Assembly: GCA_029907605.1 (NCBI GenBank)
Contig: JARYLO010000003.1
Location: 1-64,000, forward strand
Length of the DNA stretch: 64,000 nt
Reading direction: 5' to 3'
Source: Sedimentisphaerales bacterium
GTDB taxonomy: Bacteria; Planctomycetota; Phycisphaerae; Sedimentisphaerales; Anaerobacaceae
Positions 43,948 to 61,688 of the stretch are shown piece by piece. Within the stretch, counting starts at the first letter, position 1. The number at the start of each line of letters is the position of its first letter. Made by a program: the position numbers and the translations under genes. The notes beneath the pieces are model-generated. The model saw nothing but the letters and a program-made list of their open reading frames with translations, did no database searches and was not told the DNA's origin.

Positions 43948-44826
43948 CTACCAAACCTCTATCTCACGCTGGAGCTCTATGCCAAAATCACCCTTGACAC
44001 GATCGACAATGATCTCCATCAGCCGCAATACGTCCTTGCTTGAACAGCCTGGCTCTACCACGATGAAGTTGGCGTGCTTGTCACTTACCATGGCCTTGCC
44101 TACCTTAAAGCCCTTCAGGCCAGCCCGCTCGATCAATGCCCCAGCAGATTGACCTGGCGGATTCTTGAAAGCACAACCACAGCTACGGGCATCGAGTGGC
44201 TGATGGTTCTTCTTGTATATCCATACCTCCTGTACAGACCTGAGGACCTGATCTGGCTCGGCACTGGCCAGGCGCATGGTTGCCCCAAGGATGAACTTGG
44301 AGGCGATATTGGATGACCTATAGTCAAAGCTCAGCTCCGGCTTGGCCTTCTGAAAGACCTGGCCGTTGATATCCATCAGTGTCACAGACTCAATCACCGT
44401 GCCTATGTTGCCGAACCTGCCGCCTGCATTCATCTTGACGGCACCACCGACAGAGCCTGGTATGCCTGTAAGTCCCTCTAACCCAGAAAGACCACGCTTG
44501 ACACACTCCAGCACCAGGGCCCCTAGGCCAACACCTGCACCTGCATAGACCTGTTCCCCGTCAAACCTCATCTGTGTGAACCCAGGCCCATCGAGCTTTA
44601 TTACAACACCCCTGACCCCCTCATCAGGTATCAACAGGTTCGAGCCAGCCCCAAGGACATATATCCTCACCCCAGCGTCCTGGCACCGCTTGACCACCTC
44701 CTGTAGCTGACCTACATCCTGGGGCTGCACCAGATAATCTGCAGGCCCGCCTATCCCATACCAGGTCAGCCCAGCAAGTGGGTAGTTACACCTTACTATC
44801 TGCTCCAAGCCTTTGAACAAGGACAT
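43948..44826 (-). CDS. murB: UDP-N-acetylenolpyruvoylglucosamine reductase MurB
   Basis: FAD enzyme completing UDP-MurNAc. 292 residues. Motifs are LTWYGIGGPADYLVQP, VLGAGSNLLIPD, the flavin-binding LTGIPGSVGGAVKMNAGGRFGNIG, CAFKNPPGQSAGALIERAG and GDFGIELQREIEVW. Start at MSLFKGLEQ with GGAAGG upstream; the start region overlaps the murC end by about 40 nt, implying coupling. Part of murC-murB-ddl-ftsQ. Confidence 0.95.
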   Translation of the reverse strand: MSLFKGLEQIVRCNYPLAGLTWYGIGGPADYLVQPQDVGQLQEVVKRCQDAGVRIYVLGAGSNLLIPDEGVRGVVIKLDGPGFTQMRFDGEQVYAGAGVGLGALVLECVKRGLSGLEGLTGIPGSVGGAVKMNAGGRFGNIGTVIESVTLMDINGQVFQKAKPELSFDYRSSNIASKFILGATMRLASAEPDQVLRSVQEVWIYKKNHQPLDARSCGCAFKNPPGQSAGALIERAGLKGFKVGKAMVSDKHANFIVVEPGCSSKDVLRLMEIIVDRVKGDFGIELQREIEVW

Positions 44827-46267
44827 CGGCAACCTTCCATATATCCCCTGCACCCATGGTAACCACTAAATCCCCTGGGACCACATGCTCTGCCAGGTAA
44901 TCACAGATGGCCTCGAAGCCGTCTATAAACACGGCCTGCGAGCCATAACCATGGATACGCTCGACCAGCATCTGACTGTTGACGGTCTGCCTTGTCTGCT
45001 CCGAATCCCTGACAAAGTAGATCTGGGGCACCACCGTCACGTCCGCCAGCCCAAAGCTCTGGGCAAACTCCTCCAGCAGGAACCTGGTCCTGCTATGCTG
45101 ATGAGGCTGGAACACACACCAAAGCCTGCTCGGTCTATAACGCTGGCGGATCGCCTCCAGACTGGCCTTGATCTCGGTTGGGTGGTGTGCATAGTCATCG
45201 AGTATCGTTACTCCGCCTGCCAACCCCTTGATGCTAAGCCTCCTTTCAACGCCAAGAAACTCAGGTAACAGCCTCAGGACGGTCTGGCCTGGAACGCCGA
45301 TCCTCATGGCCATGGCAGAGACTGCCAAGGCATTCATGACATTGTGTTTGCCAGGCAAACAGATGTGTGTCCTACCAAGGTTGCGGCCATCGGCCCAGAG
45401 GTTGAAGTTGTAGAGGCCATCGACCAGCTCCAGGTCGGTTGCGTAGAATGAACATCGTTCATCCAGGCCAAAGGTCACACATTCAACATCAGGTCTAAGG
45501 GCAGCCAAGGCCTGATGCACACAAGGATCCTGGCCATTTGCCACCACTGTACCCTCAAAGGCCACACCGGCGATGAACTGCCCGAAGGCATCCACGATCT
45601 CCTGTAGGTCCTTGTAATAATCTAGGTGGTCCGGCTCGATATTCAGGACTGCTGCCATGGTGGGCCTAAGGTTCAGAAAACTTCGGTCATACTCACAGGC
45701 CTCTGCCACAAAGTAGTGCCCTTGGCCCACGCCTGAAGAGCCACCAAGCTGACCCACGACCGCCCCTACCACAAAATTCACATCTATACCTGCCCGCCGC
45801 AGCAAGAAGCTCAACCACCCAGTGGTTGTGCTCTTGCCATGTGTGCCGCTGATGGCTATGCCGTGATATCGGTTCATCAGCAAGCCAAGCATCTGTGCAT
45901 ACTTGTAGATCGGACAACCCAGTTGCCTTGCTCGGACCAACTCAGGGTTGTCTGACCTGACCGCAGCGGTCATTACCACCATATCCACGTTTTCAGGTAT
46001 GTTCTCGGGCCTGTGTCCGATACTGATCTGGATACCCTTTGAGGCCAGATAAGATACCATAGGCCCTGCCACCTGGTCAGACCCGGTAACGATCGCATTG
46101 CAATGGACCAGCATCTGGGCTAGCCCACTCATGCCTATGCCGCCTATACCTATCAGGTGGACCCTCTTTCCGGCGATCCTCATGGGCTGAACCCCATCCT
46201 CTACAACCATGAATCTATGGGCTGGCCTGACCCTCCCTACACGAATTCCAAACCTTGTCCGGTCCAT
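44786..46267 (-). CDS. murC: UDP-N-acetylmuramate-L-alanine ligase MurC
   Basis: Adds L-Ala to UDP-MurNAc. 493 residues. N-terminal Rossmann motif HLIGIGGIGMSGLAQML, Mur-ligase P-loop ISGTHGKSTTTGW, AEACEYDRSFL, VLNIEPDHLDYY and C-terminal DDYAHHPTEIKA, FQPHQHSRTR. The ATG at 46267 has AAGGAG seven bases upstream and a promoter at 46308-46335, which supports this longer N-terminus (28 residues before the Rossmann motif). A second in-frame ATG at 46183 also has a purine-rich sequence. First gene of the shortened dcw cluster. Confidence 0.95.
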   Translation of the reverse strand: MDRTRFGIRVGRVRPAHRFMVVEDGVQPMRIAGKRVHLIGIGGIGMSGLAQMLVHCNAIVTGSDQVAGPMVSYLASKGIQISIGHRPENIPENVDMVVMTAAVRSDNPELVRARQLGCPIYKYAQMLGLLMNRYHGIAISGTHGKSTTTGWLSFLLRRAGIDVNFVVGAVVGQLGGSSGVGQGHYFVAEACEYDRSFLNLRPTMAAVLNIEPDHLDYYKDLQEIVDAFGQFIAGVAFEGTVVANGQDPCVHQALAALRPDVECVTFGLDERCSFYATDLELVDGLYNFNLWADGRNLGRTHICLPGKHNVMNALAVSAMAMRIGVPGQTVLRLLPEFLGVERRLSIKGLAGGVTILDDYAHHPTEIKASLEAIRQRYRPSRLWCVFQPHQHSRTRFLLEEFAQSFGLADVTVVPQIYFVRDSEQTRQTVNSQMLVERIHGYGSQAVFIDGFEAICDYLAEHVVPGDLVVTMGAGDIWKVADVLVQRLGADSKV

Positions 46268-46307
46268 CTTTTGGCTCCTTATGGATCACTTCCATGTTCA
46301 TACACGT

Positions 46308-46335
46308 ATCCTAGCAGATCGGACATGGTGGGCAA
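46308..46335 (-). promoter_or_regulatory. Promoter of murC-murB-ddl-ftsQ
   Basis: Minus strand TTGCCC (46330-46335), 16 bp, TAGGAT (46308-46313), directly downstream of the terminator at 46361-46408. The start near 46301 gives a 34-nt leader with AAGGAG. Confidence 0.5.
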
Positions 46336-46359
46336 GGTGCAAGGCGATTCGAGTGGTGA

Positions 46360-46479
46360 CAAAAAAAGAAGGGCAGCGACCCCCCAGCTCTCGCCCGGTC
46401 TGCCGCCCCCCCAAGAGAAGAAGGAAGGAGTTTTGTGAGTTACGGTTCTGAGAAACCCACTGGCTTTCTATCTTGCTCT
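46360..46479 (-). ncRNA. Candidate small RNA upstream of murC
   Basis: A ~120-nt minus-strand unit is bounded by its own promoter (TTGTAG-17-TATACT, 46486-46514) and a rho-independent terminator (46361-46408). No open frame of note lies inside. A small hairpin GAAAGCC-AGT-GGGTTTC (one mismatch) sits at 46452-46468. A single-stranded pyrimidine tract follows, ACTCCTTCCTTCTTCTC, complementary to AAGGAG-type ribosome-binding sites including that of murC. It matches no RNA family I can recognise (not tmRNA, SRP RNA or RNase P). Confidence 0.5.
46361..46408 (-). terminator. Rho-independent terminator of the candidate small RNA
   Basis: Minus strand hairpin between GGGCGGCAGACC (46397-46408) and GGGTCGCTGCCC (46371-46382), with two mismatches and wobble pairs. 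It is followed by TTCTTTTTTT (46361-46370). Confidence 0.65.
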
Positions 46480-46485
46480 GCTGAA

Positions 46486-46514
46486 AGTATAGAACATAAT
46501 CCGGCAGGCTACAA
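46486..46514 (-). promoter_or_regulatory. Promoter of the candidate small RNA
   Basis: Minus strand TTGTAG (46509-46514), exactly 17 bp, TATACT (46486-46491). Predicted start near 46479. Confidence 0.5.
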
Positions 46515-46555
46515 AAAAGTGAGTTTTTTTCTGGAAGGCACGACCACCTTGCAAT

Positions 46556-46611
46556 AAAAAAGGGCGGGTCAGTCCTCCTTGAGCATCGCCGGTTTTAGGA
46601 CGCGCCGCCCC
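46556..46611 (-). terminator. Rho-independent terminator after the sulfatase gene
   Basis: Minus strand: GGGCGG (46605-46610) pairs with CCGCCC (46562-46567), and the inner GTCCT (46597-46601) pairs with AGGAC (46572-46576) across a small internal loop. T6 follows at 46556-46561. It lies 226 nt beyond the stop at 46837, or ends a separate structured RNA. Confidence 0.65.
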
Positions 46612-46720
46612 GTGAGTCCATCCTTTTTGGGTGCTCCATCTTGTATTAATGCAAGGGTTGTGCCAACAGGCACAGCCGAGGATATCTGGCAGGCAAGTCA
46701 TCTGTAAGCATCGACCCGCC
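46556..46720 (-). ncRNA. Structured RNA element with mutually exclusive pairings
   Basis: Upstream of the terminator, GGCGGGTC (46713-46720) is perfectly complementary (8 bp) to GACCCGCC (46563-46570), which is also the 3' arm of the terminator hairpin. The two pairings exclude each other. Between them lies a clean hairpin TGTGCC-TGTT-GGCACA (46659-46674). This looks like an attenuator or riboswitch-like element, or a compact ncRNA; no known aptamer is recognised and no promoter is clear. Confidence 0.35.
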
Positions 46721-46836
46721 AAGGTGTTACATGCAACCAATCAACCCCCCGCCTTTTCCCTGCACATCTGGATGGTTGCCCAAAGGCAACAGAATAGGTT
46801 CACAGCAGCTACAGTCTGCAGCCCTGATCAGAGGCC

Positions 46837-48807
46837 TCAGCCCTGCGGCCTGTATTTGCAGGTGCAGTCCCTTGCCACAGGCCTACAGACCCACTCGTCA
46901 AATACCATGGCCTTCCTATCCACCTGGTATGGTACCTTCAATATGGTAGACCTCCTCCAGGCAAGGACCTGTATCTTGATCGCATCTGCCTGCTGATCAG
47001 AGAGCACACAGGCAGACCTCTCTAGAGGATCTGTGGCAAGGTCGTAGGCCAGCACCTGATCACACACACCGTCATACACATACTTCTTGTTATCTATCAC
47101 AAACCCCGCAGGCCCCTCGTTGGCCCAGCAGGAGAAATACACTGGCCTATCCTTTCTGAGATCGGCCAGGCAGTCTGCACCATCAAACCCGTCTGTTGCA
47201 AAGCCTAGCATTCCAAGGATGGTTGGACAGACATCGATGGAGGAGGTTGGCAGGAGGATCCTTGTGCCTGGTCTAACGCCTATGGGCCCTGTGATCAACC
47301 AGGGGACATGCAGGGCCTCATCGAAACCGATCATATCATGGCCTAGCCTGCCATGCTCGCCAAACGCCTCGCCATGGTCGCCGACCACACAGAAGATCGT
47401 CTCCTGATCTAGCCCCAACTCCTTCAATTGTCCATGAAGGGCCTCAATGAAGGAATCCGTGTATCTGATGGTCTGGATGTATCTATCCACAGGGTCACTA
47501 GCCCTCTGGCCATACCACGTCGGGACCTCATAGGGGTCGTGCGTAGCAGAACACATCACCACCAACAAGAAGGGACGCTGCTCTGCACTAACCCAGTTGC
47601 GTATCGCAGGCAGCATCGCAAACTCATCTGCCGCCAGATAACCTAGGTACCTGCTTGGGTCGACCAACTGTTCCCTTGCCATGAATAGATCAAAACCAAG
47701 GTTGGCAACCAGGGAAGGCCTGGCCTCAAAGGTCCCCTTTGCAGATTGGAAGAAGGCGGCACGATAACCTGCCTGCCCTGCCAGGATTGTGGCCAGACTG
47801 GCAAAACGCCTCGGGTTTGGTATTGCCTCAACAACGTCCTGTGATGCAGAAGGGAAACGGCCTGTCAGCATCGCGAATATGGCCTTGGTGGTGTGCGTGA
47901 CCGTTGAACGCATAGAGGCAAACTCCACACCACTTGAGGCCATCTGCCTTAGGAAGGGTGTGGTATCCATCTGTGGCTGGGCCAGCGATGTATACCTGTA
48001 GGCCAGACCCTCCAAGATGACGATCACGACTTTTGAGGACCTGGCATTCTCAGACCCAGCCAAACGCACATCCTCAGGCCCTGGGACCATCCTTTCCGCA
48101 GTGTATAGGTCCTGCCTGGTCAGGCCATTACCCTGCCTGATAAGGCTGACAATGGCCCTCAATTGGCTGTTGTAGTGCATCTCTGACAGGCCAGGTGCAG
48201 ATGGAAGTCGCTTTGTGATACTGGCCCTGGCAGGCAATGCCACTAGTGCTATGCACCCTGTGACCAGCACGCGGACCAAGAACGGCCTTGTCCTGTATAA
48301 GGGCAGAATGGGCCTGGCAATCGTCATGACCAACAGCCAACTGCATACCAGGCATGGTATCAACAGTGCAAGGAATCCAACAGGGTGCTTTATCAGGTTG
48401 ACCCCCACTATCAGGGATACATTCAAGGGATCCCTTATCAGCGGCAGGATGGCCTGGGGGAATACCTGTGTGCCAGTTCGGACCAGCCAACCGGCGTTCA
48501 CGATGGACCAAAGGCACACAAGGCTGGCAATGGCAGTATTGACCCTAAAGACAGACCTGCGTGGCCAGACAAAGAACAATAGGGCCATTGCGACCTCTAT
48601 CCCTCCAAGCACGGCTACATCCGATAATACCCATGAGACATATTGGGCCAGCATATCGGACCGCAATGCATGGAAGAGCTTCACTGACAGTGTGCAGGAA
48701 AGGGCAAGTGCCATCAATAGGCTAAATGCCCTGGATGCCAAGCCTGCCAGCACCCTCCTGGCACTGGCGCGGAGACGTTCCAAGGCATCCATCCTTTCTA
48801 CTCGCAT
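46837..48807 (-). CDS. Sulfatase/alkaline-phosphatase-superfamily membrane enzyme (LTA-synthase-like)
   Basis: About 656 residues. Roughly five membrane helices in the first 210 residues are followed by an extracytoplasmic sulfatase-fold domain (about 240-610). The metal/nucleophile region is VVIVILEGLAYRY...STVTHTTKAIFAMLTGRFP, where a Thr would be the nucleophile. GDHGEAFGEHGRLGHD and HDPYEVP are the other metal-site motifs. This architecture is that of phosphoglycerol/phosphoethanolamine transferases and LTA-synthase-like enzymes, so modification of envelope glycolipid or LPS is likely; the substrate is unknown. Several nearby starts exist (48813, 48807, 48792). A TTGCTG-17-TAAGGT promoter ends so close to the start that the mRNA may be almost leaderless. 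Confidence 0.82.
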   Translation of the reverse strand: MRVERMDALERLRASARRVLAGLASRAFSLLMALALSCTLSVKLFHALRSDMLAQYVSWVLSDVAVLGGIEVAMALLFFVWPRRSVFRVNTAIASLVCLWSIVNAGWLVRTGTQVFPQAILPLIRDPLNVSLIVGVNLIKHPVGFLALLIPCLVCSWLLVMTIARPILPLYRTRPFLVRVLVTGCIALVALPARASITKRLPSAPGLSEMHYNSQLRAIVSLIRQGNGLTRQDLYTAERMVPGPEDVRLAGSENARSSKVVIVILEGLAYRYTSLAQPQMDTTPFLRQMASSGVEFASMRSTVTHTTKAIFAMLTGRFPSASQDVVEAIPNPRRFASLATILAGQAGYRAAFFQSAKGTFEARPSLVANLGFDLFMAREQLVDPSRYLGYLAADEFAMLPAIRNWVSAEQRPFLLVVMCSATHDPYEVPTWYGQRASDPVDRYIQTIRYTDSFIEALHGQLKELGLDQETIFCVVGDHGEAFGEHGRLGHDMIGFDEALHVPWLITGPIGVRPGTRILLPTSSIDVCPTILGMLGFATDGFDGADCLADLRKDRPVYFSCWANEGPAGFVIDNKKYVYDGVCDQVLAYDLATDPLERSACVLSDQQADAIKIQVLAWRRSTILKVPYQVDRKAMVFDEWVCRPVARDCTCKYRPQG

Positions 48808-48859
48808 GGCCATGACCTTAGCACAGGTTACGAAAAACAGCAAGCCCTTGTCTGCTATA

Positions 48860-48888
48860 TTGAAATACAGGCCATATCATAGTAGAGT
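48860..48888 (+). promoter_or_regulatory. Promoter of tRNA-Ser
   Basis: TTGAAA (48860-48865), 17 bp, TAGAGT (48883-48888). The start near 48895 is five bases before the tRNA. Confidence 0.6.
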
Positions 48889-48899
48889 TTGTTTGGCCC

Positions 48900-48987
48900 G
48901 GAGAGGTGTCGGAGTGGCTTATCGAGCTGGTTTCGAAAACCAGTGTCCCGATCCTCGGGACCGCGGGTTCGAATCCCGCCCTCTCCG
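48900..48987 (+). tRNA. tRNA-Ser (CGA anticodon)
   Basis: Acceptor GGAGAGG/CCTCTCC with G73, D-arm TGTCGGAGTGGCTTATCGAGC, anticodon stem CTGGT/ACCAG with loop TTCGAAA giving CGA. The long class-II variable arm is TGTCCCGATCCTCGGGACC, and the T-arm is GCGGGTTCGAATCCCGC. 88 nt, CCA not encoded. The last 16 nt plus one base recur 76 bp downstream. Confidence 0.96.
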
Positions 48988-49102
48988 TTAGATAGCAAAG
49001 GGTACCATCTCCGGGGATCTGGCCCTATCTCAGCCGAAGGCTGGGGCAATCCCGCCCTCTCCGTCCGTTTTTCTGAGCCGAAGGCTGGGTAAATCTGGCC
49101 CT
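48972..49102 (+). repeat. Partial duplication of the tRNA-Ser 3' end with nested short repeats
   Basis: AATCCCGCCCTCTCCGT occurs at 48972-48988 (the tRNA 3' end) and again at 49048-49064. AGCCGAAGGCTGGG, itself able to form a small hairpin, occurs at 49032-49045 and 49076-49089. ATCTGGCCCT occurs at 49017-49026 and 49093-49102. The 213 bp between tRNA-Ser and nadE contain nothing else recognisable. Confidence 0.8.
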
Positions 49103-49200
49103 TAGGTTCCTGACAGGGGCGGTGCTTGGACCTATGCCAGGACCAATACCACAACTGGAGCTGCTTGCCAGGCAAGCAGTCCACCCATAGAATCGCCCTG

Positions 49201-50838
49201 ATGAGACTTGCACTGGCACAATTCAATGCAGTAGTAGGTGATCTCGATGGCAATATCCACCAGATGCATCTATTCTGGCAGCAGGCAGTTGAGCATGGTG
49301 CAGACCTGATCCTGTTCCCGGAGTTGGCTATATGTGGTTATCCACCAGAAGACCTGGTCTTCAGCAGGCAATTCCTGACCGATTGTCGCAAAGCACTAGA
49401 TCAGCTTGCCAAATACTGTGATCATAAGACCATCGTGGTTGGCTTTCCCCAATGGACGGATGGCCAGATCTACAATGCTGCTGCTGTGATAACCGATGGC
49501 AAGATAAAGGCCATCTACCGCAAGGGTAGGCTGCCAAACTTCGCGGTCTTCGACGAATCACGCTATTTTAGGCCTGGTTCTGAGCCGGTCGTGATAGAGG
49601 TGGACGGGATGAGGGCGGCAGTGACGATATGCTTCGACATCTGGGACCTGGGCTGGCTTGCAGGCACCCTTCGGCCAATAGGGCCCATAGGCCTGATACT
49701 GAACATCTCTGCCTCCCCTTTTGACCTTGGTAAGCAGGCAAGGAGACAGGCCGTGGTCCTCAGGGCCGCACGGTATTTTGACTGCCCAGTTGCCTTGTGC
49801 AACCTGGTAGGCGGGCAGGATGAGCTTGTCTTTGACGGGCGCAGTATGGTTGCCAATCCAGATGGGACCGTAGTTACGTTGGGCAAGGCATTCGATCAGG
49901 ACCTGCAGTTGGTGGATGTCTTACAAGAAGGCCGGCACCATATCGCTAGGCCTGTCACAGAGCCGGCCCCGGACATATCTGACGCCATGGAGGAGGTCTA
50001 TCTGGCCCTGGCCCTAGGTACGAGGGACTATATCACCAAGAACCACTTCCAGCAGGCACTAGTTGGGGTCAGCGGTGGGATTGACTCGGCCTTGACAGTG
50101 GCCATTGCTGCCAAGGCCATCGGACCAACGAATGTCTGGGCGGTAAGTATGCCATCACGATTTAATAGCCCAGAAACCATCGCCGATGCCAGGCAGGTAG
50201 CGGAGAACGTGGGTGTAAGGTTCATCTCCATACCCATAGACCCTATCCTAGATACCTTTGACCGACAATTGGCCATGGTGAAGGGCTGGAATGATCAGGG
50301 TGTGGCATATGAGAACCTTCAGGCCAGGATCAGGGGTACCATCCTGATGTCCCTGAGCAATCAGTTTGGGGCATTGGTACTGGTGACTGGTAACAACAGT
50401 GAGGTCTCCAGCGGTTATTGCACGCTCTACGGAGATACGGCCGGTGGCCTGGCGGTCCTGAAGGATGTGCCAAAGACGATGGTCTACCAACTGGCCAGGT
50501 TCATAAACACCAGGGCCGGACGGCCTCTTATACCTGAGACCACCATCACAAGGACCCCCTCTGCGGAGCTTCGACATGGACAGACAGATCAACAGACCCT
50601 GCCCCCATATCCTGTACTTGATCAGATCATCTCCAAGTACGTAGAACAGGACCTGGCCCCTGGGCAGATCATCGCCTCTGGGATACCGTCAGCGATTGTC
50701 CATAAGGTCGTCCGTATGATAGACCGAAGCGAATACAAGCGAAGGCAGTCGCCCATCGGCATAAGGATCACAACAAAGGCCTTTGGAAAGGATAGACGCC
50801 TGCCCATAACCAACCGCTATGACCCTTGTAGGCAGTGA
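49201..50838 (+). CDS. nadE: Glutamine-dependent NAD+ synthetase
   Basis: Last step of NAD synthesis. 545 residues. An N-terminal nitrilase-fold glutaminase domain (about 1-250) has Glu in LFPELAICGYPPEDL, Lys in YRKGRLPNFAVFDE and the nucleophile Cys in TICFDIWDLGW. The C-terminal synthetase domain (about 270-545) has the PP-loop VGVSGGIDSALT and TGNNSEVSSGYCTLYGD. The nitrilase motif is usually CEDIW; here the residue after Cys is Phe. Start at MRLALAQFNAVVGD; the upstream 25 codons read through non-coding repeat sequence. It overlaps ogt by 20 nt. Confidence 0.95.
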   Translation: MRLALAQFNAVVGDLDGNIHQMHLFWQQAVEHGADLILFPELAICGYPPEDLVFSRQFLTDCRKALDQLAKYCDHKTIVVGFPQWTDGQIYNAAAVITDGKIKAIYRKGRLPNFAVFDESRYFRPGSEPVVIEVDGMRAAVTICFDIWDLGWLAGTLRPIGPIGLILNISASPFDLGKQARRQAVVLRAARYFDCPVALCNLVGGQDELVFDGRSMVANPDGTVVTLGKAFDQDLQLVDVLQEGRHHIARPVTEPAPDISDAMEEVYLALALGTRDYITKNHFQQALVGVSGGIDSALTVAIAAKAIGPTNVWAVSMPSRFNSPETIADARQVAENVGVRFISIPIDPILDTFDRQLAMVKGWNDQGVAYENLQARIRGTILMSLSNQFGALVLVTGNNSEVSSGYCTLYGDTAGGLAVLKDVPKTMVYQLARFINTRAGRPLIPETTITRTPSAELRHGQTDQQTLPPYPVLDQIISKYVEQDLAPGQIIASGIPSAIVHKVVRMIDRSEYKRRQSPIGIRITTKAFGKDRRLPITNRYDPCRQ

Positions 50839-60740: not shown

Positions 60741-61688
60741 CTATCTACCGCCACCGCTACTACCGGACTTGCCAGCATAGTCATTGACTAGGAATGAATC
60801 ACGCCTGTCAATTGGGGCTGGGCCAGCGGCCATAGGTATCTGACCCTTGACCTTGTCAGCGGTGGAGGCAGTAGCTCCCTGCCACCTGGTATAGATGTTG
60901 TCGTTCTCCAGGCCTACAAAGGACCTCTTTTCTAACTCAACGTGGCTATCCAAGTAAAGGACATTCTGGCCCTCCTGCTGGTGTGCATCGGAATTGCCCT
61001 TCTTTGCATCATCTGCATTGCCTACCCCCGTATAACCAGCAAGGTCTGGCTTGAAGGCCGTGAACCGCGTCTGGTCTGGGGCAGTGCCCTGATACCAGGG
61101 GCTGCGGTCTGCTGCCACCGCCATCTGTGCCTCGTGACTTGTGGTCAATGCAAAGGCGTCAAATGGCCAGTGGTACGCATAGCTGCAGTACTGATAGGTG
61201 TTGGACGCAGCAAAGTCCCAATAGCTCTGGATGTCAGGCAATGCCGGAGGATTGGGCTTTATGTCAGCAGCACGTGTGTCGCTCTCGCCCTTGCATACAA
61301 ACATCTTTGGTGTGCACTCAGCATGCTTGACCAATAGCCACAGGCTCGAAGAGACGGTCACCTGCCCCGTGGTAGGATTCGTTGGAGGTTGAAGATTATA
61401 GGCTATAACCCTAGAACCACCCACCAGGGTTGCAGTTGCGCTGCCCGTCCAGTTGGGTAGCTGCCCTACCCACGTATTCGACCTGGCCCCTGCCTTCGGG
61501 AACTCATCCTCGTAGTCATTGGCATAGAGCATCATGGCCTTGCCTATGCCCGAAAGGTTTGAACCACAGGTCATCCTGTAGGCCAGCATCCTCACCCTTG
61601 CCAGGGCGGGCATCAGGATGCCCATCAATAGGGCTATGATCGCTATGACGACCAATAGCTCAACCAGTGTGAAACCTCTTCTTCTCAT
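60741..61688 (-). CDS. Prepilin-type protein with planctomycete-like C-terminal domain
   Basis: 315 residues. Leader MRRRGFTLVELLVVIAIIAL (prepilin peptidase cleavage after the Gly, methylated Phe next, Glu at mature position 5) is followed by the N-terminal helix LMGILMPALARVRMLAYRMTCGSNLSGIGKAMMLYANDY. A large globular domain follows with NVLYLDSHVELEKR, similar to the H-x9-DG-type ending of planctomycete pseudopilins, and a Gly/Ser-rich tail. Five cysteines could stabilise the extracellular fold. Start at the second ATG with AGGAG spacing of six. Paralogous to the broken copy downstream (tandem duplication). Confidence 0.88.
   Translation of the reverse strand: MRRRGFTLVELLVVIAIIALLMGILMPALARVRMLAYRMTCGSNLSGIGKAMMLYANDYEDEFPKAGARSNTWVGQLPNWTGSATATLVGGSRVIAYNLQPPTNPTTGQVTVSSSLWLLVKHAECTPKMFVCKGESDTRAADIKPNPPALPDIQSYWDFAASNTYQYCSYAYHWPFDAFALTTSHEAQMAVAADRSPWYQGTAPDQTRFTAFKPDLAGYTGVGNADDAKKGNSDAHQQEGQNVLYLDSHVELEKRSFVGLENDNIYTRWQGATASTADKVKGQIPMAAGPAPIDRRDSFLVNDYAGKSGSSGGGR

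Follow-up and report, generated by a model that had tools for sequence, protein, structure and literature searches.

CU-rich or C-rich small RNAs (sRNAs) that target Shine-Dalgarno (SD) regions include the actinobacterial 6C RNA and the staphylococcal RsaE. Anti-Shine-Dalgarno motifs are also carried by sRNAs of alpha-rhizobia, namely AbcR1 and AbcR2, whose motifs are CUCCUCCC and UUCCCCUC, and the 115-nt NfeR1 (PMC8844928). Knowledge of sRNAs in Planctomycetota seems scant. In one review table (PMC9029176) the Planctomycetes-Verrucomicrobia-Chlamydiae group accounts for 8 distinct sRNAs and Proteobacteria for 345, and there is no title on a planctomycete sRNA among the literature matches listed. 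The Rhodopirellula-1 RNA motif is described as a candidate RNA from Planctomycetes (PMC2864571).

Here we consider a putative sRNA gene in a window, the whole 64,000-nt stretch of DNA that was analysed, from a Sedimentisphaerales bacterium. On balance, and with some reserve, we favour the reading that it specifies a trans-encoded sRNA of about 119 nt with its own promoter and terminator, whose CU-rich tract would block AAGGAG-type ribosome-binding sites of several mRNAs. Like AbcR1/2 and NfeR1 (PMC8844928), it would be a trans-acting sRNA with a short pyrimidine motif directed against ribosome-binding sites, and as with AbcR1/2, which are homologous to each other, two sRNAs carry the same motif. 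It differs from them in belonging to another phylum, in having no Rfam match and in occurring in a family where Hfq was not found; moreover, its tract, of up to 19 nt, lies between a 5' domain and the terminator. The 6C RNA and RsaE would resemble it in the way they work, in that a pyrimidine tract is set against a purine-rich SD sequence; among Rfam families, tRNA alone passed the cut-off in the window.

When the window was searched with the 4227 families of Rfam 15, four tRNAs alone reached the cut-off. Between 46200 and 46860, at E up to 5, the one match was to MEG8_1, at 14.6 bits against a cut-off of 70, and none was found at cut-off in the loci of six relatives. The view that this RNA is new is thus supported as regards the Rfam families, and no paper on it is among the literature matches listed, from a search whose scope excluded most subscription journals and bioRxiv. 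The family is new to Rfam, but the kind of sRNA is one already known. Hfq (PF17209) was detected in none of the 89 genomes of the window's family, many of which are incomplete, and in 5 of 14 named control genomes.

The features of the gene are collected in Table 1. Its 5' end was placed at 46479, about 7 nt past the -10 element, and its 3' end at the U-run. A covariance model of the conserved core (R2, below), run on the window with filters off, gave one significant match, at 46440-46361 with 81.5 bits. Open reading frames (ORFs) overlap the stretch, and the conserved core has single-base indels among relatives, from which the stretch appears to be non-coding. The preliminary description had proposed a complete transcription unit on the murC strand, made up of a promoter, about 120 nt of non-coding sequence and a T-rich terminator; the sequence is as it described, and promoter and terminator are conserved. 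That this is a gene for an sRNA, predicted to have its own sigma-70-type promoter and an intrinsic terminator, is well supported.

Table 1. Predicted features of the putative sRNA gene, with positions in the window
Feature	Position	Strand	Basis or remark
-35 element, TTGTAG	46509-46514	-	Read from sequence; 17 nt before -10
-10 element, TATACT (TATACTTT)	46486-46491	-	Sequence and conservation
Putative sRNA gene, about 119 nt	46361-46479	-	Promoter and terminator positions; R2 match
5' stem-loop, GTGGGTT...AACTCAC	46435-46460	-	Predicted fold
CU-rich tract ACTCCTTCCTTCTTCTCTT, putative anti-Shine-Dalgarno seed, up to 19 nt	46413-46431	-	Sequence and relatives
Terminator hairpin, GGGGGGGCGGC-A-GACC ... 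GGUC-GCUGCCC, with small apical hairpin	46371-46412	-	Scan and covariation
G-run GGGGGG on 3' side of terminator loop, last two Gs paired with CC	46380-46385	-	
Terminator U-run, 7 T	46361-46367	-	Sequence and terminator scan

Homologs were sought by several routes. A blastn search of 61 genomes (the window's own and 60 relatives) matched four, namely its own, that of a sister species (G001), G032 and G025. In the sister species, identity is 91% over query positions 73-174, where the alignment stops. Within the order, 20 of 161 genomes contain the pattern CTCCTTCCTTCTTN{2,8}GGGGG, each at a single place, against 0 for the reversed pattern, and the tract is nearly identical across the six genera of this set, for which the pattern itself selects. 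A similar pattern in a collection of named genomes returned 21 stretches. Of these, 17 belong to Planctomycetota, from metagenome-assembled genomes (MAGs) labelled Phycisphaerae, Phycisphaerales or Sedimentisphaerales, and each of them has a U-run and a box like TATACTTT; the other four (a cyanobacterial MAG, Paenibacillus, Paraburkholderia and Acidimicrobiia) are without box or U-run and were set aside as chance matches. The pattern was found in 0 viral contigs.

Three covariance models extended this picture, each trained on earlier matches, so that their agreement is not independent; sets of more than 40 genomes were searched with stricter filters, under which weak copies can drop out. Of 397 genomes in the class, R1, built from 20 cores with the promoter excluded, matched 20 at E <=0.001, all within the window's family. 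R2, built from 29 matches and run at E <=0.01 on the 161 genomes of the order, found 56, again all in that family, at 61 places, of which 46 are like the window (class A) and 15 are of a second type (class B). Among 392 genomes of the phylum its 1 match was the window's own genome, and none lay in the other 391, which would set the family apart from the Rhodopirellula-1 motif. R3 was built from 42 of the 46 class A places; of the copies left out, those of G062, G063 and G102 are close to others in the set, and that of G036 was omitted because its locus also holds class B. It matched 61 of 161 genomes of the order, including 60 of the 89 in the window's Phycisphaerae family (26 genera), 11 of these 60 through class B only, at E 0.001 to 0.004, and 29 of the 89 gave no match. 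A new sRNA family, apparently kept by descent within one Phycisphaerae family, is well supported by these comparisons.

Outside that family R3 matched 1 of 72 genomes of the order, marginally (G053, from another family, E 4.7e-4). We rejected this stretch (L194, 1001-1075) as a member, since its loop has CCCCC instead of the G-run and no promoter box is seen by eye at the usual distance in the 100 nt upstream. Its tract and terminator are similar to those of class A, and its T-run is followed by GCGCC.

A generic promoter scan of 44000-50000 found none at the sRNA site. The same scan detects the sRNA terminator, and the 6 terminators that it calls in this interval (3 of them at this site) are near the chance expectation of 3.8. 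These results would fit a terminator alone, or a chance cluster of promoter- and terminator-like DNA that makes no functional RNA. The upstream sequences of the relatives speak against such a cluster. In the 120 nt upstream of the 42 class A cores, which were found with models built without the promoter, TATACTTT is exact in 28 copies and has one mismatch in 12, compared with 0.6% and 7.6% in mononucleotide shuffles; in all 40 box-bearing copies a TTG or TTTG, read by eye as the -35 element, is separated from the box by 17 nt. Given that the box is conserved before cores found without it, we regard the promoter as confirmed despite the miss of the scan; and since no model included the promoter, it is support independent of the models. 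With a box before 40 of 42 cores, and with the covariation described next, we give a chance cluster scarcely any credence. Both class A-like copies in G023 (L132 and L133) have no clear TATACTTT box; they lie about 18 kb apart on one contig.

The terminator hairpin shows covariation in the alignment of the 42 class A copies (A6), in which 13 of 15 pairs have changed on both sides. There, the paired share of cells is 95.4%; shuffles give 83.8%, none of the 500 reaching the observed value, and slid structures give at most 64.5%, figures biased towards the structure, to which A6 was fitted. A MAFFT alignment of the 20 closest copies has both-side change in only 1 of 15 pairs. The mean fold z-score over the 42 copies is -2.2; the window's own transcript, at -0.58, is not unusually stable. 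The preliminary description had proposed conservation in close relatives and a covariance search as checks on its candidate, and it fared well in both, with the close match in the sister species, the core pattern elsewhere in the order, and the R3 matches together with the two-sided changes in the terminator.

The unit lies upstream of murC, which starts at 46267, has Mur ligase domains (Pfam) and is, like the unit, on the minus strand. Upstream of the sRNA is a sulfatase-domain gene (46837-48843), LTA-synthase-like by eye. Between the latter and the sRNA there is a second GC-rich hairpin with a T-run (ACGGGGCGGCGCGTCCTAAAACCG...GACCCGCCCTTTTTT; 46557-46615, minus strand), which has a counterpart of 86% identity over 59 nt in the sister species and is absent from all other fetched loci; it may terminate the sulfatase-type gene or be another RNA.

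In the window and the sister species alike, the unit precedes murC on its strand, a position that would suit a murC leader or attenuator, in which transcription terminates before murC and the tract serves as an alternative pairing partner. Beyond these two genomes of genus g1, however, class A genes were not seen beside murC. They stand instead beside gyrA (G017, G078, G105, G106, G107), a Na/H exchanger gene (G061, G025), thiamine genes (G089, G009), rpiB (G075), a radical SAM gene (G033), a sulfatase gene (G090) or a gene for a DUF5117 protein (G010), and 5 of 20 neighbour proteins scanned have no Pfam match. In 27 of the 44 class A loci with a downstream ORF, the next one is on the opposite strand, by a crude ORF call that missed, for example, murC in G001. 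Because the neighbours differ and the downstream ORF is so often on the other strand, we suspect a trans-acting RNA rather than a leader. We rejected a role as a murC element, as the unit moves between loci, and consider the leader very improbable; the location next to murC given in the preliminary description is right for genus g1 but does not extend to other genera. By its predicted promoter, intrinsic terminator, apparent lack of coding capacity and free-standing position, the unit is what would be expected of a trans-encoded bacterial sRNA.

The class B genes (L106, L108-L110, L116, L118, L121-L129) have the tract CATAATACTCCTT/CTTC as in class A, with three extra bases in genus g36. Their terminator differs and is simpler (GGGGCTGGTC..GGTCAGCCCC), and their promoter, where readable by eye, is TTGGCA-TATAAT, further upstream. 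Both types are present in G036, G098, G099 and G101. Among the proteins scanned (10 of the 15 places), those encoded upstream have Ig/cadherin-like domains in 9 of 10 cases and those encoded downstream have a PEP-CTERM domain in 9 of 10; in 13 of 14 cases the ORF downstream shares the strand of the class B gene. Given this nearly fixed place before PEP-CTERM genes, class B may have a role in cis. About 250-400 nt downstream of class B, before the PEP-CTERM gene, lies a conserved leader-like stretch (L121, L128, L129 and others), with a promoter ACTCTTGACTTTT..TAAACTTA followed by GGGGGGTTCTCAA...TTGAGCACCC; Rfam gave no match to it at gathering level in L121, L129, L106 and L110.

In class A, the exact sequence ACTCCTTCC is present in 22 of 42 copies, and the tract is CU-rich by eye in the rest. 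Genera g36 and g1 have the variants ACTCTTTCC and CACAAAACTCC, and distant members drift to TTTTCTCTCCTCTTCT and CCTTCTCTTCTCCTCTCTTCTTC, still CU-rich. A total of 25 copies (14 of class A and 11 of class B) contain the exact complement of AAGGAGTATTATG, which reads as AAGGAG-TATT-ATG; the window's own copy would fit GGAAGGAGTTTTGTG. The tract, which we take to be like the tail of 16S rRNA, is conserved and complementary to SD sequences, as an anti-SD sRNA should be. The 16S gene of the window's genome is cut, and its 3' end is missing.

Target prediction with this tract, as the preliminary description had suggested, was unsuccessful. AAGGAGTATTATG is matched 41 times in the 89 genomes: 25 matches are the sRNA genes in antisense, and 16 lie elsewhere, against 8 for the reversed pattern. 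When 10 of the 16 were inspected, 4 were start sites of hcp (G097, G098, G099, G101) and 2 more (L165, L173) resemble gene starts; the others were not judged to be starts. We rejected hcp as a general target: hcp-like genes are present in 26 of 30 chosen genomes, and the perfect match is confined to the four species of genus g36, outside which the start sites differ. The window's genome has 12 14-mers complementary to the tract when up to 2 mismatches are allowed, a count that includes the sRNA's own site, compared with 15 for the reversed control.

For the 54 ORFs of the window, seed-to-start-site pairing averages -10.6 kcal/mol, and 89 of 100 shuffled seeds pair with these start sites at least as well as the true seed. 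Random coding stretches average -8.6, and the advantage of start sites over them is as expected of any anti-SD tract, this complementarity being expected of any CU-rich sequence. Pairing with murC reaches -12.0 kcal/mol and that with a prepilin gene (60741-61688) -15.2, sixth of the 54. The tract thus does complement the AAGGAG core of both ribosome-binding sites, as had been noted, but by the shuffled seeds not above chance; so too, its designation as an anti-Shine-Dalgarno tract stands on conservation and on the tract common to both classes, but the exact sequence is kept in only 22 of 42 copies and no target was established. That no conserved target emerged counts against the anti-SD reading: shuffled seeds do as well, the genome has no excess of sites and hcp fails outside genus g36.

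Lack of a target excess would be expected if the RNA is real and the tract is a binding site for a protein, the RNA being a sponge or scaffold for a pyrimidine binder such as S1 or a cold-shock protein. The drift of distant tracts, which yet stay CU-rich, is what composition-dependent binding allows. However, near-identity over six genera, in the set that the pattern selected, and recurrence of the tract in class B exceed what composition needs, and we regard protein binding as unlikely, if by no means negligible.

The tract had been described as unpaired, a detail that the predicted folds weaken. Its mean unpaired probability is 0.53 over the 42 copies, but 0.33 in the window's copy; about half is predicted to be unpaired since the purine-rich 5' end offers it a pairing partner. 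In the minimum free energy folds of many copies, an SD-like 5' end, AAGGGGTA or AGGAGTA, pairs with TACTCCTT. Such folds might mean that the tract is structural, paired with the 5' end or, in a pseudoknot, with the loop GGGGGG, and that the RNA acts by its fold. A copy's own 5' end and seed pair at a mean of -11.1 kcal/mol, compared with -10.4 when swapped (46 of 2000 permutations reach this, over 38 copies; 98 of 2000 over 15 divergent copies), in permutations that ignore relatedness, but 5' ends shuffled with their composition preserved do nearly as well, at -10.5, with 22 of 200 reaching the observed mean. The G-run is steadier than the exact tract: 39 of 42 copies retain at least 5 Gs, L145, L146 and L147 having fewer, whereas the exact tract is kept in 22 of 42. 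In L146 and L147, however, the G-run is broken and the tract is retained. The 5' stem-loop, in which by eye one pair is G-U in the window and U-G in the sister species, is not universal: the -10 box is only 15 and 23 nt before the core in L105 and L131. As these two copies are almost without a 5' domain, the minimal unit would be tract plus terminator, and a purely structural role for the tract appears rather improbable to us.

Returning to the blocking of ribosome-binding sites, which we favour, the sRNA would be transcribed from its own sigma-70-type promoter and end at the intrinsic terminator, its CU tract flanked by a variable 5' domain and the structured terminator hairpin. From the tract and the known examples (AbcR1/2, NfeR1) we infer that the most likely partners of the tract are ribosome-binding sites of the AAGGAG type in several mRNAs, where pairing would block ribosome binding and lower protein output. 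Where the complement spans SD, TATT and ATG, as in the 25 copies, it could cover a whole start site. The purine-rich 5' end might conceivably mask the tract until needed, as the modelled pairings faintly suggest, and the sRNA would presumably work without Hfq or with another helper. That all of this holds at once, in a self-gated repressor of whole start sites that mimics the 16S tail and acts with two types and one seed on perhaps many mRNAs of an Hfq-free lineage, is a long shot.

From the perspective of riboregulation, a family spanning 26 genera in which no Hfq was found offers a well-delimited case in which to study how regulation by base pairing works there, and two types with one common tract open the question of targets to comparative testing. 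Directly after the U-run comes TGCG or GCGC in 25 of the 42 copies of class A and in 9 of the 15 of class B, by raw count without a control.
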